A stretch of DNA of 51,402 nt from a virus, in IMG/VR virus record IMGVR_UViG_3300012096_000008, positions 1 through 51,402 of that record; one strand, written 5' to 3'. The notes beneath the pieces were generated by a model that searched no databases, was not told where the DNA came from, and saw nothing but the letters and a program-made list of their open reading frames with translations. A program made the translations under genes and the position numbers. Positions 2,654 through 46,320 of this stretch are shown in pieces (positions within the stretch are counted from its first letter, which is position 1; each line of letters opens with the position of its first letter).

Positions 2654-4588
2654 TTGAACGTAGTCATTGACATAGAATGTAATTCCTTAAACAATCCTAG
2701 CCAGATATGGTTGATTGTATGTAAGGATATAGATACTAATGAATACTATATATTTAGGAATGTACTAGATGAACCAGAACGATTTATTTCTTTCGCTGCT
2801 AGCGTCAAACAATTTATTGGACATAATTATCTTGGTTATGATAAGCCTGTTTTGGAGAGACTTCTACAGATGGAGTTATGTCAGCAGTCCATCGACACGC
2901 TTATTTTATCTAAACTAATAGACTACCCAAGACAAGGACATAGCATTGAGGCTTATGGATTAGAGTTCGGTGAACCTAAGATAAAGTTCAACGATTGGAC
3001 TAAATGGTCTCAAGAGATGGAGGACTACTGTGTCAGGGATGTTGATATATGCCATCGCATATACCTTAAGTTTAGAAGGTATATTACTGATGTTAATCAT
3101 CAGCCAAGCATTCAGCTTGAACAAAGATTCCAACTGGTCGTCAATCTACTTCACGATGTTGGCTTTGCTTTCAATTCTAGTAAGGCATCTAGTCTTCTCC
3201 GACGGATTGAAGACGAGCTTGCAGTTCTCGACAAATCTATACTAGAAGCCTTCCCCCCTAGGTTGAAGTTGATCAGAGAAGTAATGCCGAAGGAGACTAA
3301 GTATGGTACTATTAGCCTTACTTCCATTCCTAAAGAAATGCGTAAAGATATCTCTGATCTCAGTATCAATGCTCCTTTTTGTTACTGTACTTGGTCTGAC
3401 TTCAATCCTAGCTCTCATAAACAAATTATCACTATACTTAATGAAGCTGGCTGGAGACCTATAGAAAAGACTGGCACTCACATAGAGACTGAGAGGGAGC
3501 TAAGCAGATTAAAGTATACTAAAAGAAATACTGAGGTTGACTTAAAACTAAAAGAATTATATATTAAGTTAGAATTAATGAAGAAGGCTGGATGGAAGGT
3601 CAACGAGGCTAACCTCGATACCTTACCAGCAACAGCCCCTCCCCCTGCACGCTTTCTCGCGAAGCGTATCCTGCTTGAGTCCAGACGTCGTACCCTCACT
3701 GAATGGTTATCCCTAGCTCAGCCCGATAACCGTATTCACGGAAAATTCTACGGCATCGGTGCCTGGACTCATCGTATGGCACACCAATCCCCCAATACTG
3801 CAAACATACCTCTTGAGTTTGATGCCAACGGTAAGAAGAAATTATATGGTAAAGAACTCAGAGCATTGTGGTGCGCACCTAAGAACCGATTACTAGTCGG
3901 CGTGGATGCAGAAGGTATCCAGTTGCGCATCTTTGCCCATTACATTGATGATCCAGAGTTTACCCAAGCCCTAGTCAATGGAAAGAAGGAGGACGGCAGT
4001 GATCCACATTCGCTCAACCGAAGAATTCTTGGCTCAGTTTGTAGGACCAGGCAATCAGCCAAACGCTTTGTGTACGCTCTCCTTCTCGGAGCCGGTAATT
4101 CTAAACTCGCTGAGATATTGGAATGTTCCCTACCAGAAGCAGAACTGGCTCTTGACAATCTTCTTACACGATACCAAGGTTTTGCTTATCTCAAAGAGAA
4201 TGTTATACCGAAGGATGCTAGACGAGGCTGGTTTGTCGGCCTCGATGGGCGTAAGGTTACAATCCCAGGAGATACCTACGGGATGCGCAGGCATCTATGT
4301 ATGTCTGGGTACCTACAGAATGGTGAAGCTGTCGTAATGAAGTCAGCCACTCTCAAATGGCACGATAAACTTAATGACTTCGGCGCTCAGTTAGTCAATC
4401 TAGTTCACGATGAATGGCAAACTGAGTGTCCGAACAACATGGAGATAGCACTAAGTATAGCAAGGATGCAATCAGATAGCCTACGTATAGTAGGAGAGGA
4501 ATTAAAACTTAAGTGTCCTCTAGCAGGTTCCTATGGAAATAATTTAGAGGATTACACTATTGCTACTAATTGGAGTAAAACACATTGA
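2654..4588 (+). CDS. DNA polymerase, family A (T7 gp5-like) with 3'-5' exonuclease
   Basis: Replicative polymerase, 644 aa (T7 gp5 is 704). It starts with TTG after TTTAGGA; no nearby ATG is in frame. The exonuclease domain shows DIEC (Asp6, Glu8), FIGHNYLGYD and YCVRDVD (Tyr125, Asp129). Polymerase motif A is GVDAEGIQLR (Asp418), motif B is RQSAKRFVYALLLGAG (Arg466, Lys470, Tyr474), and motif C is VHDEW (Asp586). Two active-site positions differ from T7: Gln423 replaces the sugar-gate Glu480, and Leu478 replaces Tyr530. Tyr474 matches T7 Tyr526, which permits ddNTP use. It overlaps the next gene by 4 bases and sits with SSB. Confidence 0.96.
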   Translation: MNVVIDIECNSLNNPSQIWLIVCKDIDTNEYYIFRNVLDEPERFISFAASVKQFIGHNYLGYDKPVLERLLQMELCQQSIDTLILSKLIDYPRQGHSIEAYGLEFGEPKIKFNDWTKWSQEMEDYCVRDVDICHRIYLKFRRYITDVNHQPSIQLEQRFQLVVNLLHDVGFAFNSSKASSLLRRIEDELAVLDKSILEAFPPRLKLIREVMPKETKYGTISLTSIPKEMRKDISDLSINAPFCYCTWSDFNPSSHKQIITILNEAGWRPIEKTGTHIETERELSRLKYTKRNTEVDLKLKELYIKLELMKKAGWKVNEANLDTLPATAPPPARFLAKRILLESRRRTLTEWLSLAQPDNRIHGKFYGIGAWTHRMAHQSPNTANIPLEFDANGKKKLYGKELRALWCAPKNRLLVGVDAEGIQLRIFAHYIDDPEFTQALVNGKKEDGSDPHSLNRRILGSVCRTRQSAKRFVYALLLGAGNSKLAEILECSLPEAELALDNLLTRYQGFAYLKENVIPKDARRGWFVGLDGRKVTIPGDTYGMRRHLCMSGYLQNGEAVVMKSATLKWHDKLNDFGAQLVNLVHDEWQTECPNNMEIALSIARMQSDSLRIVGEELKLKCPLAGSYGNNLEDYTIATNWSKTH

Positions 4589-4725
4589 ATACTGAAGCAA
4601 TTGATGAACTCATTCAGTACTTAGATACTGAAATTAAAATGGATCATAAGTATGATCTAGATAGAACTGAGATCGATTTGATTATTGATGCTTTAACATT
4701 CTACAAGGAGATGCAAGTAATATAA
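4585..4725 (+). CDS. Small acidic protein, 46 aa, TTG start
   Basis: The TTG at 4585 overlaps the polymerase stop as TTGA and has GGAG 8 bases upstream. The product is acidic and helical (NTEAIDELIQYLDTEIKMDH, then a second helix ending in FYKEMQVI). Its stop overlaps the SSB start as TAATG (4723-4727). The overlap on both sides makes it a likely real, coupled gene. No family recognised. Confidence 0.62.
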   Translation: MNTEAIDELIQYLDTEIKMDHKYDLDRTEIDLIIDALTFYKEMQVI

Positions 4726-5213
4726 TGGTTAAGGGTAAAACAGAATTTAAATATGTACAAGGTAAGGTAGCTTGGTTTAGACCGGATGTTCCTAATAAAT
4801 GGAATAGATACTCTTGCCAATTGCATCCTGATACTAAGAGCTTGGAAACAATTCGGGAGTTACAAGCACAGGGTTTAAAGAATAACTTAAAGAAAGATGA
4901 AGATGGATACTTCATTAACTTCACCAGACCTATAGCTAAGACATTCACATCTGGCAAGACTATAGCCTTCGGTCCAGTAGAAGTGTTTGATAAAGAAGGT
5001 GTTCCTTTTCATGGAGCTGTAGGTAATGGCTCTGATGTTACTTTGAAACTTGAAATCTACTCCTTCGAGTTTGAAGGAGTCAAAGGCATCGGCGCTCGTT
5101 GGGTTAGTGCTCGGATAGATAACTTAGTACCTTTCAGTTCTGATACAGATATGACTGAGAAAGAGTCAGAGGCTGCTTCAGGATTACTAGACAGACCAGA
5201 GCAGTGGAGTTAA
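4725..5213 (+). CDS. Single-stranded DNA-binding protein (T7 gp2.5-like)
   Basis: Binds ssDNA at the fork and helps the polymerase and helicase. The 162-aa protein has the conserved pattern of the short marine/freshwater T7-like SSBs: FRPDVPNKWNRYSCQL, INFTRPIAK, GKTIAFGPVEVFDKEGVPF, GNGSDVTLKLEIYSF, then ARWVSARIDNLVPF. An acidic, Ser-rich tail ends in a Trp, the counterpart of the acidic tail with terminal aromatic residue in gp2.5. The gene is coupled to the previous one. The assignment rests on this pattern and on its place behind the polymerase. Confidence 0.75.
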   Translation: MVKGKTEFKYVQGKVAWFRPDVPNKWNRYSCQLHPDTKSLETIRELQAQGLKNNLKKDEDGYFINFTRPIAKTFTSGKTIAFGPVEVFDKEGVPFHGAVGNGSDVTLKLEIYSFEFEGVKGIGARWVSARIDNLVPFSSDTDMTEKESEAASGLLDRPEQWS

Positions 5214-5762
5214 TCTGCTGCTCAGCGGTGCAGTGGCGCGCCAGCGAAGAACTGCACCCTGCTCCCCGTTAGGGAGAGCCTGTGGGATGCGCCTCCGCGA
5301 CAGGCAGAAACATATGCAGTGTGAACCCTTATCGCTCAGCGGACACCCCACCCTCCGCACCACCTTCAGGAAGTGGGCTGCAGTGGCCGCCTTGTATAGC
5401 TAGGCGGGAATCCTAAGCGTTATCCGAGTTCCCCAAGCGTCTGGCTGAGTATCCAGAGGAGGTGACTCCAAAACTTCTGCTCGCAATAACCGTGTAAGAC
5501 TGGTGTGACTCCAGTTCAGGTCTACTATCTATTAGTGGTTAAAATGCCTGACCTAGAAGTGGGAAACGGTGAGCAAAATAGCATGGTACTACTCTGAGCG
5601 CACCAACATGGGGTCTCATTAACCTCGAATTGTTGGAGATCAAATAGATGTCGCGCATGCTAGGGTCGGTAGTGACCGACGCTATAACCTCTATAGAGGG
5701 CGCGTATGAGGGTAAAGGTCTTGGCAACCTAAGGATTTGGAAAGCCTAATGATCTGAAGCGG

Positions 5763-5844
5763 TATGAGGTGGCGGAATAAAGGAAATCTTCTCTTAACCA
5801 ACTCTTGTTGGTGACACCGGTTGGTTCGATCCCAACCCTCCGAG
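5763..5844 (+). ncRNA. tRNA-Leu-like segment, cloverleaf incomplete
   Basis: TGGCGGAAT (5770-5778) resembles the start of a tRNA-Leu D-arm. TAA sits at the anticodon position (5795-5797), TGTTGGTGACACCG resembles a tRNA-Leu variable arm, and a perfect T-arm follows (GTTGG-TTCGATC-CCAAC, 5820-5836). However, the anticodon stem does not pair; ACCAAC-TCTT-GTTGGT (5797-5812) forms a different hairpin, and the acceptor stem has only 5 of 7 pairs. It is therefore a remnant or a tRNA-like domain of a larger RNA rather than a normal tRNA gene. Confidence 0.4.
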
Positions 5845-5894
5845 CACTAGGCGGAGACTGGCGACTAGAGCGTTGAGCCCAAAGGAAGCTAAGT

Positions 5895-5919
5895 GCTGGT
5901 TCGATCCCAGCTGATCTGA
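5895..5919 (+). ncRNA. Isolated tRNA-type T-arm
   Basis: GCTGG-TTCGATC-CCAGC is a perfect 5-bp T-stem with a canonical 7-base T-loop, 75 bases after the first T-arm, the spacing expected for adjacent tRNAs. I could not build matching D, anticodon or acceptor stems upstream. Confidence 0.4.
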
Positions 5920-5981
5920 AGGTAGAACAGAGCTTCTGATTACTTTGACGTAGTAGCTATGAAAGATTTCTGAGGTACGCA

Positions 5982-6027
5982 GTGGATTGCAACCCCACCT
6001 ATGCTGGTTCGAGTCCAGCCCGATTAT
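5982..6027 (+). ncRNA. tRNA-Cys-like 3' half
   Basis: An anticodon arm with GCA at 5989-5991 (TTGCAAC loop, 4 of 5 stem pairs) is followed by a 4-base variable loop and a perfect T-arm (GCTGG-TTCGAGT-CCAGC, 6003-6019). The expected 5' acceptor strand and D-stem are missing upstream. The 3' half is intact but the 5' half is not recognisable. It may be a captured fragment or part of a larger RNA fold. Confidence 0.42.
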
Positions 6028-6528
6028 CGTAATGTAGTAGGATCATGATAAAAGCGAGACCCGAACCGGGAACACCATCGGAGATTGGTGTAGCGTTAAT
6101 CCTAAGTGTTCACCCCTCAACTACACTGACGGAACTGTTTCCACTGTTAGAGCAAGCTGCATAACTTGAACTCAGCCCAGACTACCCTGTGGAGCTGGTC
6201 GCGTAGAAGCAGCATCTAGAGTACTGCACAGCGGACACCGTTAACCTCCGTGCCTTCGGGTAGTATGTGCGAAGAGCGGAAGCCATAGATGTGGATCGGC
6301 GGCTGTTAACCGTAGGATCATATAGACTGCCTACATTGGCAGGGATGCGATTGGCGCGTAAAGATCACCGTGAGCCTGCATCAAGCAACAGACTACTATG
6401 ACTAGGCGCAACGCTAAACTGAATCAATTAAGCATGCGCTGAATGGGTAGCTAAGACGCCTCTCACTGTTCCTTACATGAATGGGGTGAGCCGCAAGCCG
6501 GTCTAGCAAGTCCATGTAAATTCCTATT

Positions 6529-6556
6529 GCTTGATTTCACCTTGCGTGAAATCAGC
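6529..6556 (+). other. Repeated hairpin element GCTTGATTTCA...TGAAATCAGC, copy 1
   Basis: TGATTTCAC pairs with GTGAAATCA (9 bp) around CTTGC. The same outer sequences recur at 9284-9307 with a shorter stem and loop. It may mark the 3' end or a processing site of the structured RNA region; no T-run follows. Confidence 0.55.
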
Positions 6557-6666
6557 ATCGAAGACAGACCCATGATGGCCATCTGTCTCTACAAGACGTA
6601 GGAGGTGCCGATGCGTGACTTTCACCAAAGTGCCCAGCCTCCTTAATATTCAAGAAGAAGGGTAAC

Positions 6667-6693
6667 GGAGTGGGCCTTGTTAGAGCCCACTCC
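6667..6693 (+). other. Strong 9-bp hairpin before gene at 6718
   Basis: GGAGTGGGC pairs perfectly with GCCCACTCC around a 9-base loop, about 10 bases before the ribosome-binding site of the next gene. No T-run follows, so it is not a typical terminator. An RNase III site or 5'-end stabiliser is possible. Confidence 0.5.
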
Positions 6694-6717
6694 TGAACCA
6701 CGGAAGGAGTAACTACC

Positions 6718-7047
6718 ATGAGTAAGTACAGCGAATTGCTGGCTATTATGGAGTTCGCCAAGAATACCAGCAAGGATAAAGAACCTAAACGTTGGCGTAA
6801 GAAGAAGGAACCTGACTTCATAAATCAGTTAGTAGACTATCAGGATAAGGTAGAGAAGTTTAACAAATGGTTGAAGACGCAGGAGAAAGAAGATAAGAAG
6901 AAAGATCACAGTCTATTTAAGGATTGGACTGTAGGACAGAAGACCGCTTTCTTTACTATACTCGGGCCACCAATGGGTATAGCTTACATATTCTGTATCG
7001 TCTTATTGGTACGAGGCTTGGCTACATTCGTAGTAGGAGGTCATTGA
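6718..7047 (+). CDS. Hypothetical charged protein with C-terminal membrane segments, 109 aa
   Basis: The ATG at 6718 follows GGAAGGAG. About 75 residues are rich in Lys, Glu and Asp (coiled, helical), followed by TVGQKTAFFTILGPPMGIAYIFCIVLLVRGLATFVVGGH, which holds one long or two short membrane segments. Cytoplasmic part first, membrane anchor last. Function unknown. The stop overlaps the next start as TGATG, showing coupling. Confidence 0.75.
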   Translation: MSKYSELLAIMEFAKNTSKDKEPKRWRKKKEPDFINQLVDYQDKVEKFNKWLKTQEKEDKKKDHSLFKDWTVGQKTAFFTILGPPMGIAYIFCIVLLVRGLATFVVGGH

Positions 7048-7259
7048 TGTCAACGCAAAGAGAACGTTGGGAAAGTTGGACTGCGCCTGAATCTCTTGAA
7101 GACTGCGTTAAGCTGTTCTTCGAAATTCTTGACATCACTGAAACATCAGACAGTGGAGTAGATTTTAAACCTAACTGTATTAGGAGTTGTCGTGTATGGG
7201 ACACTCACCGTCTCGAAAGAATTATCATTAAAATGAAAGAGTTAGCTATACGTGTCTAA
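7047..7259 (+). CDS. Hypothetical protein, 70 aa
   Basis: I chose the ATG at 7047 because it overlaps the previous stop and has TAGGAGG upstream. The product is soluble and mostly helical (MSTQRERWESWTAPESLEDC, then LERIIIKMKELAIRV), with three Cys residues. No family recognised. The next gene starts inside its last codons. Confidence 0.68.
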   Translation: MSTQRERWESWTAPESLEDCVKLFFEILDITETSDSGVDFKPNCIRSCRVWDTHRLERIIIKMKELAIRV

Positions 7260-8115
7260 TATACAAACATTAATACCAGATATATACAAACTAGTAGGAG
7301 GCCAAGATAACTGGCTCAGAGAAGATATTGCAACCCAATTTACGGCTGAACTCACTCTTAAACTCCAAGAATCCCTCGGAGAAAGAGCAAGCCCTACTCT
7401 TCGTCTCTCAGGTATGGGCTTACGCTGCCCGTGTAGCCTGTGGCACTCGATACATACCCCACTGGATGCAGAGCCACTCCCACCTTGGGCCAGAATCAAA
7501 TACACTTACGGACACATACTTGAAAGCCTTGTGATCGCCATGGCTAAGGCAGCCGGGCATGAAGTAACAGGAGAACAAGATGCTGTATCTGTTGATGGGA
7601 TCGTCGGCCATAGAGATTGTGTCATTGACGGGTGTATCGTTGATGTTAAATCTACTACTAGCCGTGGCTTCATCAAGTTCAAAGAAGGTTCAATCGCATC
7701 CGATGATACTTTTGGTTACTTGGATCAACTTGATGGGTATCTTGTGGGCTCCCTTCACGACCCACTTGTTCGGGATAAATATCGGGCTTACTTATTAGCA
7801 ATAGATAAACAATTAGGACATATGTGTTTATATGAGCATACTGCGCGCGAGAAAAGCATTAGAGAAAGAATTCGAGATTATAGAGATGTCGTCGCTCTTG
7901 ATAGAGCTCCGCCATGCACTTGCGAAGAAGTTCCCGAAGGAAAATCCGGAAACATTAGACTGGGCGTTAGAGCAAGCTATAATGCGTTTAAGTACCAGTG
8001 TCACCCACAGCTTCGAACCTTCCTCTATTCAACTGGACCAGTCTACTTAACTAAAGTGGTGAGGAAGCCTGATGTAATAGAGATAGATAGATATGGTAAG
8101 ATAGTTTACAATTAG
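7252..8115 (+). CDS. PD-(D/E)XK exonuclease (Cas4/YqaJ-like)
   Basis: The GTG start at 7252 overlaps the previous gene. The nuclease core shows YTYGHILESLV (Glu91), GHRD (His120, Asp122) and DVK (Asp131, Lys133), the order expected in the PD-(D/E)XK fold. Cys residues lie before the core (CPC near 59-61) and after it (CTC, then a lone Cys near the C-terminus), so an Fe-S or zinc site as in Cas4-type nucleases is possible. In T7-like phages such an enzyme takes the role of the gp6 exonuclease in host-DNA breakdown, recombination and primer removal. It is followed by endonuclease I. Confidence 0.78.
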   Translation: MSNIQTLIPDIYKLVGGQDNWLREDIATQFTAELTLKLQESLGERASPTLRLSGMGLRCPCSLWHSIHTPLDAEPLPPWARIKYTYGHILESLVIAMAKAAGHEVTGEQDAVSVDGIVGHRDCVIDGCIVDVKSTTSRGFIKFKEGSIASDDTFGYLDQLDGYLVGSLHDPLVRDKYRAYLLAIDKQLGHMCLYEHTAREKSIRERIRDYRDVVALDRAPPCTCEEVPEGKSGNIRLGVRASYNAFKYQCHPQLRTFLYSTGPVYLTKVVRKPDVIEIDRYGKIVYN

Positions 8116-10406: not shown

Positions 10407-12071
10407 TTAAGTACCTTCTTCAATGTCTGTACGTTGTTGACGTAGCTTCTTAAGCTTGGCTTTATCGAACTCAGTATGAGGATATTTCTTCATAAGCTCA
10501 TCAATCTGTCTGTGTATTGGTTCTAATTTATCTTGTCTTTCCCTAAGCCTTTTCCACGCAGCATCGATAGCATCATCAGCTTCTTTACTACCAATCATAT
10601 TAGGTTCCCTAACATTATAGGGTCTGTCTGGGTGACCCTCAGAGAAATTATCATTAGCTGCACGTCTAAAGTTCTCTACAGATTTAGAGATCTTTCCAGT
10701 TGAATCTCTTACACCGTAGGCAGTAGTCATAGTGACCTCATCAATAGGGATCTGATGCTGAGTAGCAATATCTTGGGTATACCACGGAGGACTATTACGA
10801 CGTTCTTGTTCAAGCATAAGCAAACGCGTGTCTGTATTCCTAGCCTCAGTCTCCCCAGCAAGTCTCATGTAATATTCATAGGCTGCTTTATCCGCAGCTG
10901 CATGATATTCATTATACTTCTGCGCCACCTGTTTTAAATACATAGCTCTAAGATTCTCTTCAGGGGTTAAAACTCCCCCAGCTTCAGCCTTCTCATAAAG
11001 TTTTTTAGCTTCAGGGACTAAAGCCCTTACAAAGGGAGTATATTTTAATTGATAATCTTTGCTTGCTTCCCCTGGATAACCTCCTTTAGCAAAGCCTTCT
11101 TCATCTTGAATAGCATGTTGTACTTCATGCATTAAAACCCCTTGATTAGTAGCATATTTGGGATTCATCCTTATAGTCTTATGACCTACACTCCACTCCG
11201 CCGCTCCATTGTAATAAGGATCTCTTATAACCCTAATATCCTGTAACTTAGGATAAGCCTTATATAATTCAGGATGATCTAGAACCCTAGGTAAAGCAGC
11301 GATATCTTCTCCAGTGAAACCATGACGAGCAGAATCAAACCATTGTCTATCGAAATTAGATTTACTATCGTCTATCTCGTAACGCCATCTATTATCAGCA
11401 CCACGAAAGAATCCTGTCTTCTGGAATATCTCATCAGGATGAGCAGCATTAGATTCTAGTACTTGAGCATGACCTAAGTCAGCCATCTTCTCCTTTATTC
11501 CAGCACTCTTAACACCAGCAAAGGAACCCAAAGTACCATCAGCCAACTTAGCAGCTACAGGAGCCGGAGCTCCTACCATAGTCATAGCTAAATCAGCAGT
11601 CTTTTGAATACCTTCCTCAGACATTGGATTTACTTCACCGGATTTAACATCTCCGGGAAAAGAGAAAATCTTTAGTGCACCCTTAATACTATCCATAAAA
11701 TTCTGCGGCAGATTCTTGACTGCTTCTTCTGATCCAGCAGCCATTCCACGCACAGCATTTAGTATGGATGCTCTGGCCGGTGTAGGAGTAAGGCCCTCTG
11801 ATTTAAACTCACCAGCGGGCTCCGTAGGGCTTCCTGGAGGCATTGTAGAAGAGGTGGTAGGATCATAATCCAGCTGTCTAAGAGGTTTATATTCAGCAGG
11901 ATTGAATCTATTCTGAAAGCTTCCTGCTAGTTCATTCTCCTTAATCTCAGCAGCATCTCTAGCTGGCTTATCCTGACCTACAGGTCTAATGCTAATGGCA
12001 TTCTCATGCATAGCTGTAGCATGAGCATACTCATCTTCATAATAGTTACCATCGCTAGTTCCAATAGGCAT
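10407..12071 (-). CDS. Virion protein with HEVQH zincin-like metalloprotease motif, 554 aa
   Basis: Last gene of the late block, directly after two large internal virion proteins, so probably ejected with DNA (inference). The N-terminal 200 residues are low-complexity and Ala/Pro-rich. Residues 295-330 read KTIRMNPKY...GVLMHEVQHAIQDEEGFAKGG, an HExxH zinc site at 315-319. A downstream GETEAR (Glu407/Glu409) may supply a third ligand. Such zincin domains are known in polyvalent phage/plasmid proteins. The C-terminus is a charged coiled coil (REQ..., KKLRQQRTDIEEG). The stop of the upstream gene overlaps its ATG by one base. Confidence 0.72.
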   Translation of the reverse strand: MPIGTSDGNYYEDEYAHATAMHENAISIRPVGQDKPARDAAEIKENELAGSFQNRFNPAEYKPLRQLDYDPTTSSTMPPGSPTEPAGEFKSEGLTPTPARASILNAVRGMAAGSEEAVKNLPQNFMDSIKGALKIFSFPGDVKSGEVNPMSEEGIQKTADLAMTMVGAPAPVAAKLADGTLGSFAGVKSAGIKEKMADLGHAQVLESNAAHPDEIFQKTGFFRGADNRWRYEIDDSKSNFDRQWFDSARHGFTGEDIAALPRVLDHPELYKAYPKLQDIRVIRDPYYNGAAEWSVGHKTIRMNPKYATNQGVLMHEVQHAIQDEEGFAKGGYPGEASKDYQLKYTPFVRALVPEAKKLYEKAEAGGVLTPEENLRAMYLKQVAQKYNEYHAAADKAAYEYYMRLAGETEARNTDTRLLMLEQERRNSPPWYTQDIATQHQIPIDEVTMTTAYGVRDSTGKISKSVENFRRAANDNFSEGHPDRPYNVREPNMIGSKEADDAIDAAWKRLRERQDKLEPIHRQIDELMKKYPHTEFDKAKLKKLRQQRTDIEEGT

Positions 12072-14179
12072 TATTTAGACACCGGAGGTTTGATTGTGCT
12101 ATCTATCGGGGGAATTCCCGGCTTCCTATTAGCATTCAAGAGAGCGTCCATCATCTTAGTGGGTATGCCTTCGACATTATTCCTGAAGTCAAAGCCACTA
12201 TGCGAAAGTACTCCAACAAGATAACTATTAATATCTCCACTGGCTGACTTCTCTACATGACCTAGATTCTTAAGACCTTCGTTGATCTTATCTATTACTG
12301 AAGTAACAGGGCGTGCATAAGTTTGTTGAACTTGAGACAAAGTACTATTATCCCTATTCAGTAACACAAACTGACCTTCTGTAGTATTCCAACCCATGTG
12401 GTAGCTTTGTAGATATCTTTGATCTTTAATCCTAGATAGATCTGCAATAGAATCTCTAGCTAAAATACCACCCCATGTTTTCTCAACCCAATTACGATAT
12501 TCAGTCTGAGTTTTCTGTGGTAGTTTAGCCATGAAGTCTGTAACCTTAGGATCAGTCATAGCTACAAAAGCTGTCTGACGATCTGCAGGATTGGGAAACT
12601 TATCCAAAGAACCAATATTCTTAAGATTGAATGCAAAGGTAGCTGCATTAATTTTACCTTGATCTTTAACCTCTGGATTAGCAATGACCTTAGCTACATC
12701 TACCATAGCCTTATAGACACCAGGATCGGAGATCTTCTTACTACGTGCATTATCCATGGCATCAGTCATAGTAGTGGGAGTAGGATTAGGTTGACCTAAG
12801 GCTTCCTTCTTCATACCGCCTACATAGTCAGAGTACTTCTTATCGAAGCCACCGACAATAGCATCCTGTAATAGGATAGCACCAGTCTGAGGACCGACAG
12901 CAGTAGTAACTGCCTGCATCTTCCTAGTCATCTCACCTACAGTTTCATCGGCATACAACTCATTAGTAGCTTTATTCTGGATGGCAGTATTCTGATTGAG
13001 AGTAAAGTAGACCCCCATATAATCTTTATCTTTTACCCGCTGAATGATATTATCATAGAGACTAAGTTGTTCATTGATCTCATTCTTTAGATTACTAAGA
13101 CCTCCGACATTACTGGCATAAGAATTGCCTTTCTCATCTCTACGTAAAGCAATAGATCTTAAGTGCGCAGCTGCAGCATCTCGTTGTGTAGCTAGGTTAG
13201 TCAACCACATTCTATTCTGTTCTTCACCCATTTGAGGTATCTGACCAGTAGCTTGACCCTGGAAATAATCAGATAGCTCTTTGGGTGTTTGTACATCAGT
13301 AGCCATTCGTTGAATATTGAAGGCATTGTCAATAGCTCCCCCGGCTTCTTTAGAAAAGTCCGCCTTAGTTCTCTGTACCGTTAATTCACCCTGACTCTTA
13401 GCTGCAGCTCTTTCTGCTTCAGCAGCCTTCTGATTAATTGTTAATGCAGACTGCTTAGCTACATAGTTTCTTAAACCTTCACTATCTATAGCGCCCCGGT
13501 CATACTTCTGTCTTATTAAATCCATGCCAGGAATACTATCAATGTATCTATCTATGAAAGCATGATCCTTATCTTGTACAGATTTACCAGCAGCTAAATT
13601 ACGATTAATATCTTGTAATAAGTTCTCATAGAAAGCATTGGCAGGGTTCTTACCACTGACCTTAGCAATCTGCTCATCAATAAAATCCTTGGAACCTGGA
13701 TATTGATTACGTAAATTCTTAGCTAGAGAGTTCAAAGCACCGGTGTATAGAGTATCATTAGCTTTACCAGCACCACCGTTCTGAGCCATAGCTGTACCTA
13801 GAGCCTGTGCTCTAGCAATACCTTGCTGTAGACCGCCGGGGATCTCTTGCGGAACTTCTTCAGCTAAGGTTGAACCGCTAATACCAGCAGAATGAAGTGA
13901 TTCAGGACTAGGTGCAACTCCACCTTGAGTTTGATTCCATACATTCTTTAAGGCTGCGGTATAATTATCTCTTAATCCTTCTACTCCAGTTCTAACCTTC
14001 TCCTTGATTATATCGGATTGTATCTCATTACCAAGACCTACAGCGCTGGTTAATCCTTCGCCTATAGTAGAAAGAGTCTTACCTAAAGAAGTATCAGACT
14101 CAGGTTGAGGTATAGTATGGGATACTCTAGTCCAATCTTGAGGATTTATCTGCGGAGGTTGAACGTCAAATGAGACCAT
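12071..14179 (-). CDS. Large internal virion / ejection protein, 702 aa
   Basis: The protein is long, Gln/Asn/Ala-rich and mostly alpha-helical, with no signal peptide or recognised enzyme motif. It starts with a Pro-rich segment (VQPPQINPQDWTRVSH), then a Gly-containing helix, then long helical stretches (AAEAERAAAKSQGELTVQ). Size, composition and place between the giant protein and the zincin protein match a T7 gp15-type internal core protein. It is coupled to both neighbours through one-base TAATG overlaps. Confidence 0.65.
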   Translation of the reverse strand: MVSFDVQPPQINPQDWTRVSHTIPQPESDTSLGKTLSTIGEGLTSAVGLGNEIQSDIIKEKVRTGVEGLRDNYTAALKNVWNQTQGGVAPSPESLHSAGISGSTLAEEVPQEIPGGLQQGIARAQALGTAMAQNGGAGKANDTLYTGALNSLAKNLRNQYPGSKDFIDEQIAKVSGKNPANAFYENLLQDINRNLAAGKSVQDKDHAFIDRYIDSIPGMDLIRQKYDRGAIDSEGLRNYVAKQSALTINQKAAEAERAAAKSQGELTVQRTKADFSKEAGGAIDNAFNIQRMATDVQTPKELSDYFQGQATGQIPQMGEEQNRMWLTNLATQRDAAAAHLRSIALRRDEKGNSYASNVGGLSNLKNEINEQLSLYDNIIQRVKDKDYMGVYFTLNQNTAIQNKATNELYADETVGEMTRKMQAVTTAVGPQTGAILLQDAIVGGFDKKYSDYVGGMKKEALGQPNPTPTTMTDAMDNARSKKISDPGVYKAMVDVAKVIANPEVKDQGKINAATFAFNLKNIGSLDKFPNPADRQTAFVAMTDPKVTDFMAKLPQKTQTEYRNWVEKTWGGILARDSIADLSRIKDQRYLQSYHMGWNTTEGQFVLLNRDNSTLSQVQQTYARPVTSVIDKINEGLKNLGHVEKSASGDINSYLVGVLSHSGFDFRNNVEGIPTKMMDALLNANRKPGIPPIDSTIKPPVSK

Positions 14180-17100
14180 TATTGGGTGCCTTGTGTCTGT
14201 TGTAATTGTTTAGTTCGAACGAAAGCATCCTTACGTCTTTCTCTTACGTCTGTTGGAATATCTCTGCCTAAGTAGAAGTCATAATTAGACCGATCAATAG
14301 AATCTCCCTTACTCTTAGCAGCCTGAGCTATAGCAGCTAATACTCTATCGTAAGTAAAGCCAGCTAGATGTAAAGTAGCAAAAGCATTCCTATGGTAAGT
14401 CTCAGCCTGTTGTGGATCATTAGCTTTAGCAGCCATATCAGCTCTATGCATATCTTCTATGAAACTCTTTAAAGCATCCTTCTGTAAGTCTTTCTCTTGC
14501 CTACGAATATCTCCCTTAAGCCAAGCATCAGTCTGTTCAGTAGGACCTAATCCAGTAGTAGCCATGAAGATAGCATTAGCCTTAGATACATCCATAACCG
14601 GAACATCATTGGTAGCTATCCACTTACCCATAGTGGTGCCAATGTATCCCTTTCTAAATTGATTAACAGAAGATATCTGTAGAGCAGGTTTAATCAGATC
14701 ATCAAAGGTAAACTTAAATCTCTTCTCTGCTGGATCTTGTCTAGCAAAGGATATCATAGATTTATACCAACCATCGAAACCGGAGAGGAACTTATAAAGG
14801 TTATCAAAACCCGCGCCACCTACTATTTGCATCCAAGTCTTATCTGATCTAAGTAAATCAGTAAGAGTGGTCATACCCTTAGTCCCCCACTTACCTCCTA
14901 CATCGTAGTTGTTACCCCCAGTAGCTTTATTTAAAAATAGAGCGGGCCAGCCTTCCATTATTGCTGTACTATACCAGTGTTCTCCGGGTATATAACCAAA
15001 GTTATCTAAAGCATACTTACGTGCCTTATCTCCTAAAGGGAGACCGGTAACGCCAACAGCACTAGGGATACCGTACATAGCTCCGTAAGTAGCCATAAGC
15101 CGAGCACGGGCTAGAGCACGATCCCCCGCTGTTGAACCAATCTCCTTACCAAAGAAGGTTTCACCAAGACGATAAGTATAGTTTAGGAACTGCATAGGCA
15201 GAGATAAAACTCCTTCATTCAACATTGAAGCAGAAGCTCTAGTCATGTTATTAGTTAAGATATTAGCGTGACGTAGAATCTGTTGTCTATCTAATTCAGT
15301 TAAAGCTTTAAAAGGATTATCTTCTCTGAAGTTTCTAAAGGCAGTATAGTATGCAGGGATACGGGCAGCCTTCTCACCCCAATTAAAGAACTGTCGACCA
15401 CCTCTACGAAACCCAGACATACCTTGAACTACAGAACTGTTATTAAAGACATTGTCTAAGTCAGCCATCTCACCACCTACGTTTAGGAAGCCAGAACGGA
15501 TTAGCTCTTGTCTACCTTCTAGAAATTCACCCGGACGCCAACGACTACTACCCAGAGTAAGCTTGGCCGCATCTATTTTAGTAGCATAATTATCTAAGGC
15601 TTTAAGTACCTCAGGAGTATTATTCACTGAAGCCCAACTGTGAAGTAGAGAAGCATAAGTACCTGCAGCGCCGGCTCTAGGCTCTAGAGCCACGGTTGTA
15701 GTCCAGCTATTGAATTGAGTTAGAATCTGGGGTAGAGAGTATAGTCCTAGTTTAAAATCATAAGCCATAGATCTAATGGCAGCCACAGGCTCTGCATGGT
15801 ATGGCAATAGCCAATGAGGAACTAATAGTGCACCACGCTTAAATGGATTAGCAGACTCATACATAGTATCCGCTATCTGCTGTGTTAATTGATACATAGT
15901 AGTGTCAAACTTACTAGGTAGACCTATGAATTCTCTAGCCTTATATCTATTAGATAGTAAATTAGACTTCTTCATTAAGTCTACACTATTCAATCCTGTA
16001 CTCCATTCTGGAGTTACGAAATTAGAGAATGGAGCTGACCTAAGTTCAGATTCTTTAGTCTTTAGATATGGAGCTGCTTCACGTAACCAATGCTCAACAG
16101 TATAGATCTTGTAATCGTCCATGAAAGTACTATTAACCATTCTATTGAATGATCTATTAAATGCAGCCATTGGGTCAACCATACTTGCAGGTTGATATTC
16201 GAAGTCAGGACGATCTGCTTTACCTCTAGCATTAATGGCATAGACACGATCTTCAGCACGTTCTCTATTATAATCTACCTGGAATTGTTTAGAAAGATCT
16301 CCGGAACGAGTACCATCTCGCCAAGTACCTGCATATTTAGTTTGTAAGTCTTTACCTACAGGTAGATCAGCTATCTGCATTCCTTTAGGAACTACTTCAA
16401 ACTTCTCTTTAGTGGAGTAACGAGGTAGTACAGTTTTTCCATTCTCATCTTTAGTAGCTTCGAAAAATCCTTTAAAATGATCCCACTCCATAGGAAGTTC
16501 ATGCTCTAGGAATTTAGCCTTAGCTTCATCCATTTTACGAGCATCCATCAACGCTACGACATCATTCATCCTACGAGCGAAGTCTCTGCCTTGCGCTCTA
16601 TTGTCTGCTAGTGCAAAGGTACGATCCCCCTCGTAGAGATGTTCTACCTTAGCACCACGTTTATCTGAAGCTACGCTACCCGGTTGAGTTGGAGTTATAA
16701 TAGGTTGTTTAATAGCATGATCATAATCAAAATCAAAATGGCCACCGGCACGACGATTGACATGTTCATACCCCAACTCTTTAGTTTCAATATTATTAGC
16801 GAAGACATAGACAACACGTTCATTACCTGCAATCTTACTGAAGTTTGCTAAAGGACGTTGTCCTGAAGCATAGACTTGAATTACTCTACCTTGACCTTTG
16901 CTGACTTGATCTGATAACTTCTCTCTAAGTTTAGTAGGTAAAGCATCAGTTCTATATATACGCTCATCCCCAGCCTTATCTCCTAGTACTAGTATATTTT
17001 CACTACCACCGGGGAGAGACTTACGATCTACACCATCTACGAAGCCAGAATTTATCTTAGTATTATTAGGACCATCAAACCAGAACTGATGTTGTTCTAC

Positions 17101-19404
17101 ACCTAGACGACTGCGATACTTATATTCGGAGATCTCCATCAATACACGCTCAGCCTCTACCATCTTGACGAAGGAGAAGTAAGCATTAGCTTCATTGAAG
17201 CTAGGAGGACGATCAAAGTTTATTAGATAATGATTCTCTAGTTCACCTAATGTCTTAAAGAAATAACCAGGTTCTCCATTATTATGAGGATCAGGGGCAT
17301 CCTGGGCATACTTTAATGTTCTAGTGAATTGTTCCTTTACTTCATCTTTAGTAAGCTTACCTGTAATAGATCTAGGAGCACTCCGATACCAAGGAATAGG
17401 CTCTCCAGCTACTTCGTCATTACGCACTACACCCCTAGCAATATCGACTAGAGATTGTCCTTCTTGCTTAGCCCAATTACGTAAACCTGAAGTAGAGAAG
17501 GTGGCAGCATTACGCTGCATCATTTCATTCTTAGATAGAGTTTGATTAGCCCCCCGTACCCAACCGAAGATACCATTTCTAATATTCTCGAAACCAGAGG
17601 CACTAGAAGTACCTACAGCATCCGGAATTATATTACCTGCTACATCTCTGATCATAAGATTCTTGACCAGAGGATCTCCTTCATTAAATGGAATAGTTCT
17701 CTCTACGTAAAAACCAATACCTCTTTGCTTAATAGCGGCAGTAGGGAAGATAGCTTCATTCTTTACCTTACCTTCAGCTTGACCTAATTTGTAGGCTGTG
17801 GGTGCTAGTTTAAGTTCTTGTCTAGCAAAATTATTGGCTAGCTCTGCAGAAGAGAATAGACCCCCATCGTAATTACCATACCTAATAGGCCATTCATGGG
17901 TATTGGTAATCTTATTAGGAATAGGATCACCTACATCTAATAAAGTATTTTTAGGCCCTCTATAGTCAGCGGCAATCTTATTCTTTAGGGCTTCTACATT
18001 CTCAGGTACAGTCAGAGCAAGTGGAGTACGTTGAACCTTAGACATAGCCTCGGCTTCGTTGAGTAGAGTTTCTCCTCCACGAATAATACCATCTTGTATT
18101 CTAACTACAGCTTCACGAGAGAAGCTGCCTGTATTATTAGCTAGCAGTTCAGCATCTTGTCTGAACCCAGTCATCAAGGCTTCCCTACCAATCTTAGTAG
18201 GATTTAGAGTTCCATCATTACCTTTAATTATATTATCAGCTACGGTAAGAATAGCAGATCTATCTGTATTACCTACATTCTCAGCTATAGTAGCTTGAGT
18301 AGGATGTTCTACTTCTAGAGACTTAGCTATATCGCGATAACCTCTACGAGTATTGTTTAATAGATTAACTTTAGTTAATAGCTTCTTAGTTACATTAACA
18401 CCGGTAGCAATATCCAATGGAGCTAGTACAGTATAGATATTATTTAAATACTTATCTGAGGTTGTAGAACCTAGAATAGTCTGAGCAAACATCAGAGCCA
18501 GGGTAGGATTATTACTCAATCCATCTAATATTCTAGTAACCTCGGATCTAAACTGAGGTCCAGGTAAAGCCATCAAAGCATCCACTGTACTCTCTAAGTT
18601 AGTTCCTAGTAAGACACCACCAGAGAGTTTACCCACCTCCTGCATCAGACCTCTAAGTTTATATTCAGAGTAGGGTTGTGCTATTAGAGCTAATTGATCC
18701 GTAGTCCAACCAATCCAACCTTGTTTATCTATTTCATCCTGTAAGTTCTCAGCCTTTGTATGAACGAATTCACGCATGGCTGCAAGAGTACTAGTCTTAG
18801 ATACATTGTCATCTACTTGATCCGGGATCTCTCCTTTAGCTTTATCCAGAAAGTTATCTGGCATATAACTAGCAGCTGTATTAGCAGCACTCACATAACT
18901 AGTTGCATAAGCTCTTTCAATTACTTCATTAGGATCAGCAGCATGATTAACTGGAGCGAAAGGATCTAAGATTTGTTTAACTTCATTAGGATCTAATGGA
19001 CCGCCTTTACTAACAGAAGCTTGTATAATCTTCTGCTGCTGTGTCATAGCTCTATTATAATCTATCTTAGCAGCAGCTTCCCTACGTATCCAGTCTTCTT
19101 GTCCCGCGGCTATGGAAGATCTAACGCCATTCTCATCCATGCCTAATAGATCAGCCAGACCACCATAATTAATCTTAAATGTTCTTTTATCTACCGTAGC
19201 TTCAGAAGGATTAGGAGAAGCGGTATTAGGTCCCGGAAGAGTTGGTTGAGGTAAACCATCATCAGCCTTACCTGGAAGTCCTATTACTACACCTTGATCT
19301 TGAGGTGAAACTAACTCCTGAGGTTGATCCAACTGAGCAGGTTGAGAGAAACTTATTCCCTCTTGTCCCTCATTCTCATCTGGAATGGGTAATGATTGGG
19401 CCAT
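14179..19404 (-). CDS. Giant internal virion / polyvalent protein, 1741 aa
   Basis: The largest gene of the window. It starts with an unstructured Pro/Gln-rich leader, then long helical regions (MTQQQKIIQASVSKGG) and mixed domains. The C-terminal 450 residues contain ILTNNMTRASASMLNEGVLSLPMQFLNYTYRLGETFF, which resembles the membrane-facing domain found at the end of large polyvalent phage proteins (LPD38-type). T7 gp16 (1318 aa) holds an equivalent place, but I saw no lytic transglycosylase motif here. It probably forms part of the DNA-ejection channel (inference). Confidence 0.7.
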   Translation of the reverse strand: MAQSLPIPDENEGQEGISFSQPAQLDQPQELVSPQDQGVVIGLPGKADDGLPQPTLPGPNTASPNPSEATVDKRTFKINYGGLADLLGMDENGVRSSIAAGQEDWIRREAAAKIDYNRAMTQQQKIIQASVSKGGPLDPNEVKQILDPFAPVNHAADPNEVIERAYATSYVSAANTAASYMPDNFLDKAKGEIPDQVDDNVSKTSTLAAMREFVHTKAENLQDEIDKQGWIGWTTDQLALIAQPYSEYKLRGLMQEVGKLSGGVLLGTNLESTVDALMALPGPQFRSEVTRILDGLSNNPTLALMFAQTILGSTTSDKYLNNIYTVLAPLDIATGVNVTKKLLTKVNLLNNTRRGYRDIAKSLEVEHPTQATIAENVGNTDRSAILTVADNIIKGNDGTLNPTKIGREALMTGFRQDAELLANNTGSFSREAVVRIQDGIIRGGETLLNEAEAMSKVQRTPLALTVPENVEALKNKIAADYRGPKNTLLDVGDPIPNKITNTHEWPIRYGNYDGGLFSSAELANNFARQELKLAPTAYKLGQAEGKVKNEAIFPTAAIKQRGIGFYVERTIPFNEGDPLVKNLMIRDVAGNIIPDAVGTSSASGFENIRNGIFGWVRGANQTLSKNEMMQRNAATFSTSGLRNWAKQEGQSLVDIARGVVRNDEVAGEPIPWYRSAPRSITGKLTKDEVKEQFTRTLKYAQDAPDPHNNGEPGYFFKTLGELENHYLINFDRPPSFNEANAYFSFVKMVEAERVLMEISEYKYRSRLGVEQHQFWFDGPNNTKINSGFVDGVDRKSLPGGSENILVLGDKAGDERIYRTDALPTKLREKLSDQVSKGQGRVIQVYASGQRPLANFSKIAGNERVVYVFANNIETKELGYEHVNRRAGGHFDFDYDHAIKQPIITPTQPGSVASDKRGAKVEHLYEGDRTFALADNRAQGRDFARRMNDVVALMDARKMDEAKAKFLEHELPMEWDHFKGFFEATKDENGKTVLPRYSTKEKFEVVPKGMQIADLPVGKDLQTKYAGTWRDGTRSGDLSKQFQVDYNRERAEDRVYAINARGKADRPDFEYQPASMVDPMAAFNRSFNRMVNSTFMDDYKIYTVEHWLREAAPYLKTKESELRSAPFSNFVTPEWSTGLNSVDLMKKSNLLSNRYKAREFIGLPSKFDTTMYQLTQQIADTMYESANPFKRGALLVPHWLLPYHAEPVAAIRSMAYDFKLGLYSLPQILTQFNSWTTTVALEPRAGAAGTYASLLHSWASVNNTPEVLKALDNYATKIDAAKLTLGSSRWRPGEFLEGRQELIRSGFLNVGGEMADLDNVFNNSSVVQGMSGFRRGGRQFFNWGEKAARIPAYYTAFRNFREDNPFKALTELDRQQILRHANILTNNMTRASASMLNEGVLSLPMQFLNYTYRLGETFFGKEIGSTAGDRALARARLMATYGAMYGIPSAVGVTGLPLGDKARKYALDNFGYIPGEHWYSTAIMEGWPALFLNKATGGNNYDVGGKWGTKGMTTLTDLLRSDKTWMQIVGGAGFDNLYKFLSGFDGWYKSMISFARQDPAEKRFKFTFDDLIKPALQISSVNQFRKGYIGTTMGKWIATNDVPVMDVSKANAIFMATTGLGPTEQTDAWLKGDIRRQEKDLQKDALKSFIEDMHRADMAAKANDPQQAETYHRNAFATLHLAGFTYDRVLAAIAQAAKSKGDSIDRSNYDFYLGRDIPTDVRERRKDAFVRTKQLQQTQGTQ

Positions 19405-45544: not shown

Positions 45545-45760
45545 ATGCAAGTCCAATTCGTGTTTCGTGAATACAACCATTTCGGTAGATGCACACTGGA
45601 ATGGGAAGGTATGACCGAGGATATGGCTACCTACTATGAAAAATACTTTCTGTTCATATCGAACAGAGATAGAGATACAGTACGATTGACTGCTGATACA
45701 GCACTAGAGAATGGTATTGAAATACACCGTTCCTATGTCACACTCAGGAGGGCTAGATGA
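45545..45760 (+). CDS. Small hypothetical protein, 71 aa
   Basis: ATG at 45545 with GAGGGGAATG upstream, one base after the preceding stop. Sequence QVQFVFREYNHFGRCTLEWE, then MATYYEKYFLFISNRDRDTV, ending RRAR. Similar size and composition to the previous protein. Its stop overlaps the NYN gene start as ATGA-like. Function unknown. Confidence 0.66.
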   Translation: MQVQFVFREYNHFGRCTLEWEGMTEDMATYYEKYFLFISNRDRDTVRLTADTALENGIEIHRSYVTLRRAR

Positions 45761-46320
45761 AACGTATTGGTATCTTCATTGATGGTTCTAATCTATACAT
45801 GTCTGCTAAGGCATTAGGATTTAGGATCGACTTCACTAAATTAAAGCAATATTACCAGACTCAAGGTGATGTTGCTCAAGCTATGTACTTCACTGCTCTA
45901 CCTCCTAAAGATGTTGAATCTCCATTACGTAGGATGGTGGATTATGTTGAGTTCAATGGTTTCACTGTAATACAAAAAGAGACCAAGGAATATCTAGACG
46001 TAGACAATAAGAAAAGATTGAAAGGGAATATGGATGTGGAGATTGCTGTCTACATGGGAGAAGTTGCTAATAGCCTCACTGATATCATTCTGTTTAGCGG
46101 GGACGGTGACTTTCGCTGTCTTATTGAGTCATGTCAGCGTGCTGGCGTTCATTGTACTGTTGTGTCTGCTCGTAGTCTTGTGGCTGATGTTCTAAGACGT
46201 CAGGCTAATGAATATGTTGACTTGTCTACTCTTAAAGATAAGTTAATGCATGAGGAAGCCAAACAACAAGAAGTTGAAGAAAAGCGTAGTAAACGCTTTA
46301 ACTTCTTGGATAAAGGTTAA
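45757..46320 (+). CDS. NYN-domain (LabA/DUF88-like) PIN-fold RNase candidate, 187 aa
   Basis: The LabA-like NYN fold is clear: GIFIDGSNLYMSA with Asp9 and Asn12, KGNMDVEIAVYM with Asp93, and IILFSGDGDFRCLI with Asp116 and Asp118, the usual acidic cluster for metal-dependent RNA cleavage. C-terminal 40 residues are a charged helix (EEAKQQEVEEKRSKR). It overlaps the upstream gene by 4 bases. A role in turning over host or phage RNA is an inference. All acidic residues needed are present, so it is probably active. Confidence 0.85.
   Translation: MKRIGIFIDGSNLYMSAKALGFRIDFTKLKQYYQTQGDVAQAMYFTALPPKDVESPLRRMVDYVEFNGFTVIQKETKEYLDVDNKKRLKGNMDVEIAVYMGEVANSLTDIILFSGDGDFRCLIESCQRAGVHCTVVSARSLVADVLRRQANEYVDLSTLKDKLMHEEAKQQEVEEKRSKRFNFLDKG

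Follow-up and report, generated by a model that had tools for sequence, protein, structure and literature searches.

Comparative evidence for a giant phage RNA family carrying YrlA-like, circularly permuted tRNA modules in a replication operon

Very few known RNA families reach the size of the one described here, and what GOLLD and ROOL do remains open. In permuted two-piece tmRNA, the 3' half precedes the 5' half, and the tRNA-like part joins a large RNA at the anticodon-stem position. GOLLD and ROOL come from phages or prophages, have no known function and assemble into cages; tRNAs can be accommodated by the linkers of GOLLD (PMC12286853). YrlA, a bacterial Y RNA of 90-150 nt, is a tRNA mimic that carries modifications made by DusA and TruB; PNPase is bound by its tRNA-like domain, and Rsr/Ro60 by its stem (PMC8394870).

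The window analysed here, the whole 51,402-base stretch of DNA, comes from a single virus record. Its replication operon, on the + strand, comprises in order a UDG-like gene, a family A DNA polymerase gene (2654-4588; PF00476, phrog_17), a 46-aa gene, a 162-aa gene (4725-5213), an interval of 1,504 bases (5214-6717) that lacks + strand ORFs of at least 60 aa, a 109-aa ORF (6718), the gene of a Cas4-domain exonuclease (7252-8115; phrog_1990), used as synteny anchor and coding control, and an endonuclease gene (8213). The product of the 162-aa gene had no family match and is SSB-like by position only. The sequence-only reading had described the interval as an insertion into an operon of overlapping genes, without a convincing gene of its own and richer in GC than its flanks. 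All three points were borne out: the genes at 2654-4588, 4585-4725 and 4725-5213 overlap, with the next + strand ORF starting only at 6718; the interval holds no + strand ORF of at least 60 aa, and its small ORFs are not conserved; and GC content is about 0.50-0.52 inside, compared with 0.34-0.43 upstream. A scan for promoters and terminators gave nothing above chance expectation. Elsewhere in the window, an NYN-domain protein with a PIN-like nuclease fold (45757-46320, + strand; PF01936, E 4e-24) is a possible phage RNase, and a 1741-aa ORF on the - strand (14179-19404) has no Pfam match.

Evidence for selection at the RNA level came from an alignment (A1) of nine close relatives with 65% mean identity and long invariant blocks across the interval. 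The RNAalifold consensus on this alignment contained about 40 helices, in which 96 base pairs were changed on both sides, compared with 7.05±3.1 (maximum 15) in 80 column shuffles that kept the gap pattern and the conservation; the consensus energy lay 16 s.d. below the shuffles (z = -16.1). The same procedure applied to the exonuclease gene (80% identity) yielded a single pair of this kind and z = +0.8, and the consensus energy of the interval was better on the + strand than on the - strand (-162.0 vs -125.7). These counts, the coding control and the strand preference therefore identify a giant structured RNA. The shuffles preserve column composition but not phylogeny; an artefact is nevertheless unlikely in view of the coding control and of how large the effect is. 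The single-sequence fold of the window was only modestly better than shuffles (z = -2.4), and for the predicted structure it is the comparative evidence, not single-sequence folding, that is decisive. The earlier proposal of a giant folded RNA inserted in the replication operon is supported, and neither outcome named as refuting it was met, as no coding frame is conserved and compensatory changes are numerous. The features of a giant structured phage RNA in general (more than 600 nt, non-coding, extensively covarying) are likewise present. As far as can be judged from sequence comparison, it is almost certain that the interval encodes a new family of multi-domain, non-coding phage RNA of about 1.4 kb, read along the replication operon.

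The conserved body of the RNA, from the first to the last consensus helix of A1, spans 5315-6693 on the + strand, which is also the strand of the parts described below. It is preceded by a stretch of about 95 nt (5214-5308) which, in A1, is partly common to only one relative (L036) and is absent in L004 and L006. All the stems named in the sequence-only reading can be found in the window, but not all of them are conserved ones. The 8-bp stem GGTGCAGT/ACTGCACC (5227-5234/5251-5258) exists but falls within this 5' stretch and is not conserved among close relatives, and the GNRA hairpin GGAG-GTGA-CTCC is present near 5459-5470, whereas the relatives instead pair 5460-5464 with 5477-5482. The proposed UUCG-type loop was recovered as TTCG near 6255, and the proposed long-range stem as TTACATG/CATGTAA near 6473-6519. 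A tRNA-like superdomain (5749-6046) is closed by the long-range helices 5749-5755/6040-6046 and 5759-5763/6026-6030, in which five and three pairs, respectively, are changed on both sides (8 of 12 in total). It is surrounded by outer closing helices (5710-6062) formed by 5710-5713/6059-6062 and 5720-5722/6052-6054, and the most conserved sequence block, TCGTAATGTAGTAGG..ATAAAAGCGAGACCCGA, lies at 6027-6064. A 3' domain (6212-6292) is formed by the helices 6212-6219/6286-6292, 6226-6230/6266-6270 and 6231-6235/6247-6251. The body ends with a 9-bp hairpin, GGAGTGGGC/GCCCACTCC (6667-6693), with five pairs changed on both sides, which is not followed by a T-run and lies directly 5' of the Shine-Dalgarno-like AGGAG of the next ORF. 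The reverse complement of 6051-6130 resembles a type II tRNA with GTGTAGTTGAGGGGTGAACAC as its D-arm and with a long variable arm; this candidate was set aside, and parts of it are missing from L003, L006 and L036.

More than 80 related contigs were gathered from IMG/VR by polymerase and exonuclease searches; the 109-aa ORF, used as bait, retrieved no relatives. The gap was measured from the homologue of the 162-aa gene, or from the polymerase if no homologue was found, to the exonuclease. The interval occurs at the same place in 63 related, mostly uncultured phages, the clade members with a complete interval, where the gap ranges from 1,462 to 4,156 nt (median 2,189) and ORF coverage is poor. 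No such gap exists in the marine isolates Roseobacter CRP-13 and phage T5S1-k141_653015 (the latter listed as Zobellviridae), both of which have Cas4 and polymerase homologues, or in Sinorhizobium phiM6, and in more distant contigs (L104, L106-L110) the place is occupied by genes. The RNA is therefore an insertion specific to this clade, and its carriers are a group of soil phages. A blastn search with the interval against isolated phages gave no matches, and in one further contig (L118) a 19-base motif matched by chance, with no other similarity. In an outgroup phage (L098, 9692-9765), one tRNA-like gene in canonical order, to which ARAGORN assigned a 2-base anticodon, lies exactly at the place of the giant RNA; growth of the giant RNA from a tRNA is suggested by this single gene.

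Whether the RNA belongs to a described class had been left undecided from the sequence alone, and this question could be resolved: the GOLLD and ROOL covariance models were unmatched at E up to 10, no Rfam 15 family reached its gathering score in the window or in 15 relatives, and an Rfam scan of the interval at E up to 10 gave nothing meaningful. The earlier remark that giant phage RNAs lie near tRNAs applies here only in a modified form, because no canonical tRNA is nearby (ARAGORN found 0 tRNA or tmRNA genes in the window) but the RNA itself holds tRNA-like modules. In the window, ARAGORN likewise found no complete cloverleaf with an anticodon loop and no tmRNA with a tag reading frame, and there was no Rfam tmRNA match.

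The tRNA likeness rests on three copies of an 18-base repeat, unnoticed in the first reading, which are perfect tRNA T-arms (5820, 5895 and 6003) and are all enclosed by the closing helices of the superdomain. The first opens a YrlA-like permuted tRNA module (5820-5871), in which the T-arm (5820-5836) is followed by a closed, acceptor-like hairpin CTCCG/CGGAG (5838-5842/5852-5856), which covaries, and by a degenerate D-arm from 5859. The second T-arm hairpin is GCTGGTTCGATCCCAGC (5895-5911). The third, GCTGGTTCGAGTCCAGC (6003-6019), has on its 5' side a covarying hairpin (5981-6000) that resembles an anticodon or variable arm, with the loop TTGCAA/GTGCAA/GTGAAA; the best tRNA-model match in the window, a weak one of 16.9 bits against a cut-off of 29, spans 5974-6021. 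A covariance model of the module (R1) scored 20.6 bits in the window (E 0.028 in 0.96 Mb) and 46-51 bits in L003, L007, L037 and L114, the last of which is outside the training set. The window module alone does not fold as predicted, and its D-arm is weak. A second model (R2) covers the domain around the third T-arm and recovers it in distant members (L052 with E 7e-7, L074, L070 and L133); the intervals therefore belong to one RNA family. The E-values of these short-calibrated models are rough.

Across the clade, perfect T-arms were found 84 times on the + strand and never on the - strand, with 0.3 expected from dinucleotide shuffles. At least one was present in 46 of the 63 genomes; the modules may be optional or diverged, since the other 17 show no perfect T-arm. 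In many relatives a hairpin directly adjoins the T-arm and is followed in turn by a Leu/Ser-type D-arm, TGGYGNAA..GG..ANRC. In an alignment of 15 module segments, 91.5% of the cells were paired and 35 double changes were counted, compared with 11.3±2.7 after shuffling. For 44 additional matches from outside the training set, these values were 97.2% and 151 (vs 38.8±7.5); they extend to other phages, to bacteria and to a few tandem tRNAs of canonical form, and their alignment leans towards the model because it was fitted to it. At E < 0.001, all R1 matches lay on the + strand and inside the interval, apart from real tRNA genes. R1 also scores the boundaries of canonical tandem tRNAs (L182, 4285-5023), and matches near real tRNAs were therefore discounted. 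Tandem canonical tRNAs were themselves rejected, with the post-T-arm strand rarely pairing with upstream sequence and only a few odd ARAGORN matches. The strand 5' of the T-arm pairs with the strand just 3' of the D-arm in a position-restricted test (sum 97.4 vs 65.7±4.0 shuffled), but a closing-stem search without position limits remained at chance level, so that support for the closing stem comes only from the restricted test.

The segments of L066, L023, L094 and L102 fold on their own into the predicted permuted cloverleaf, and that of L018 does so in part. The segment of L102 (2784-2874; folding z-score -7.0) comes close to a complete tRNA in circularly permuted form: its opening lies at the anticodon loop, a long hairpin closes its 7-bp acceptor stem, and its 5-bp anticodon stem, 5-nt variable loop and 4-bp D-stem are near-textbook. 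With high confidence, although by comparative prediction, the modules of the clade can be regarded as circularly permuted tRNAs of YrlA design without a CCA end or an anticodon loop. That the window itself carries the same tRNA-mimic module, with a degenerate D-arm, is probable but less secure.

The closed-acceptor module was also observed in nine contigs of other phage kinds (L120, L126, L127, L128, L131, L142, L144, L145 and L148), where it lies within or close to stretches of about 0.4-2.5 kb that lack ORFs; L148 additionally matches the domain around the third T-arm (19.8 bits). YrlA-like permuted tRNA modules, sometimes several in tandem, occur in Bacteroidota genomes of Dokdonia, Aquimarina, Tenacibaculum and Saprospiraceae (L154, L163, L165, L172, L173, L175, L176, L182 and L185). 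In most cases a conserved protein of about 366-385 aa is encoded a few hundred bases further downstream, and the two copies tested are SPFH/Band_7 (slipin-like) proteins. These bacterial modules look like unannotated Y RNAs, since the Rfam YrlA model matches the three tested loci, though only below the cut-off.

The helices of the phage module follow the same order as those of YrlA, namely closing stem, UGUU-type linker, T-arm, hairpin-closed acceptor, two bases, D-arm and closing stem, and the Rfam YrlA model (RF02553) matches L066 at 10856-10923 with 29.4 bits (E 5e-6 genome-wide). Distant clade members have the complete YrlA module, whereas the window has its T-arm and acceptor with a degenerate D-arm. 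From the shared helix order and the match in L066 it follows that the giant RNA is at least built with a Y-RNA module and, by inference, works like one. However, the YrlA gathering score of 69 bits was not reached (the best scores were 29.4 in L066 and 9.9 in the window), and the conserved body of about 1.4 kb does not fit the 90-150 nt of YrlA, the phage module being, unlike YrlA, only a small part of the RNA beside further T-arms. YrlA is bound to Rsr/Ro60 (PMC8394870), whereas no TROVE/Ro60 gene was found in the window or in 29 relatives (30 phage records, host unknown), which argues against a self-contained Ro60 RNP. As it is now defined, the YrlA family does not include the giant RNA. The nearest RNAs in kind are GOLLD and ROOL, even though their models are unmatched. 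Like both, it is a giant, ornate phage RNA of unknown function. GOLLD is also tRNA-linked, but the present RNA is not near tRNA genes and has its own tRNA likeness built in and permuted; compared with ROOL, it is about twice as long as the 659-nt ROOL env-120 (PMC12286853) and lies in a replication operon. With tmRNA it shares a tRNA-like part for which the position of the anticodon stem is the point of attachment to a large RNA; it differs in the absence of a tag ORF, in the loop-closed acceptor, which leaves no CCA end, and in the D-arm of elongator-tRNA (Leu/Ser) type.

Taken as a whole, the explanation that is favoured, by a modest degree of confidence, is a new giant phage RNA family built around YrlA-type tRNA mimics on which host tRNA-binding proteins dock. 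Co-transcription with the replication genes and the docking of such proteins on the tRNA elbows are inferred, without expression data. The RNA would be made together with the replication genes; in each module the T-arm stacks on the loop-closed acceptor stem, followed by the D-arm, and the would-be anticodon stem attaches the module to the rest of the RNA. As a scaffold, the RNA may then present tRNA-like elbows to host proteins that recognize tRNA bodies, such as the T-arm- and D-arm-modifying enzymes (TruB and DusA modify YrlA) or PNPase, which is bound by the tRNA-like domain of the Y RNA, and these proteins would be sequestered or redirected to the benefit of the phage. This function is inferred from the analogy to YrlA, an RNA in which the tRNA-like domain is itself understood only in part, and such capture or redirection by a scaffold can only be put forward tentatively. 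The closed acceptor and the missing anticodon loop argue against charging, decoding and a role as a decoy for anticodon nucleases.

Other readings have to be weighed against this one. An architectural or self-assembling RNA in the manner of GOLLD and ROOL, with the T- and D-arms as elbows that hold together the RNA or a multi-copy cage, perhaps enclosing ribosomes or tRNAs, is rather unlikely but has points in its favour: cages are formed by both of those RNAs, with linkers in GOLLD that can accommodate tRNAs (PMC12286853), the present RNA resembles them in size and in its ornate fold, and the modules lie deep inside a domain closed over a long range. However, neither RNA is matched by sequence or model, and the near-exact tRNA consensus in T-loop and D-loop exceeds what a structural T-loop needs. 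Several tRNA-like modules per RNA, in a sequence that changes fast while its structure is kept, could also suit a decoy that absorbs host defence factors attacking tRNAs or sensing tRNA fragments, and RNA repair operons that include Y RNAs are described as responding to damaged tRNAs (PMC7790460). This possibility, for which the link to defence genes is untested, appears improbable, as the modules have neither a CCA end nor the anticodon loop that most known anticodon nucleases target.

The RNA might also be a genuine phage Y RNA that, in the manner of YrlA, links PNPase to the Ro60 (Rsr) ring of the host and whose giant body enlarges the part to which Ro60 binds. The identical module topology would fit this, as would the related modules of Flavobacteriia, which adjoin a gene of SPFH/Band_7 (slipin-like) type and obtain scores with the YrlA model. 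Even so, this reading is quite doubtful: no Ro60-binding stem was recognized, the gathering score was not reached, and the window and its 29 relatives contain no TROVE gene (the host being unknown). The presence of T-arm and D-arm sequences, and the single tRNA-like gene of the outgroup, from which the giant RNA may have grown, could instead point to a decaying array of tRNA genes without function. This reading is already contradicted and retains very little credibility, since the dense covariation over 1.4 kb and the covarying, paired permuted modules mean selection on structure, and neither a CCA end nor 7-bp canonical acceptors are found. An element acting at the level of DNA, for instance a cruciform-forming replication origin, would fit the position among replication genes, but it is contradicted by the strand asymmetry, with all T-arms on one strand and a better consensus fold on the + strand, and can hardly be maintained at all.

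The scaffold of YrlA-type tRNA mimics thus remains the preferred reading. What is new here is an undescribed RNA of about 1,400 bases and the occurrence of tRNA-mimic modules inside a giant phage RNA, which connects the field of giant phage RNAs with the separate one of tRNA mimicry by Y RNAs. Since this giant RNA has a built-in functional clue, the tRNA-mimic module of Y RNAs, the binding partners of giant phage RNAs become directly testable. The finding also suggests a route by which a tRNA gene can become a giant RNA. It is conceivable, though short of an even prospect, that there is a class of phage giant RNAs, extending beyond this phage family, in which each RNA is made of several tRNA modules of the circularly permuted kind. 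Such RNAs, which may go back to one phage tRNA like that of the outgroup, would present many tRNA elbows to capture the tRNA-handling machinery of the host.
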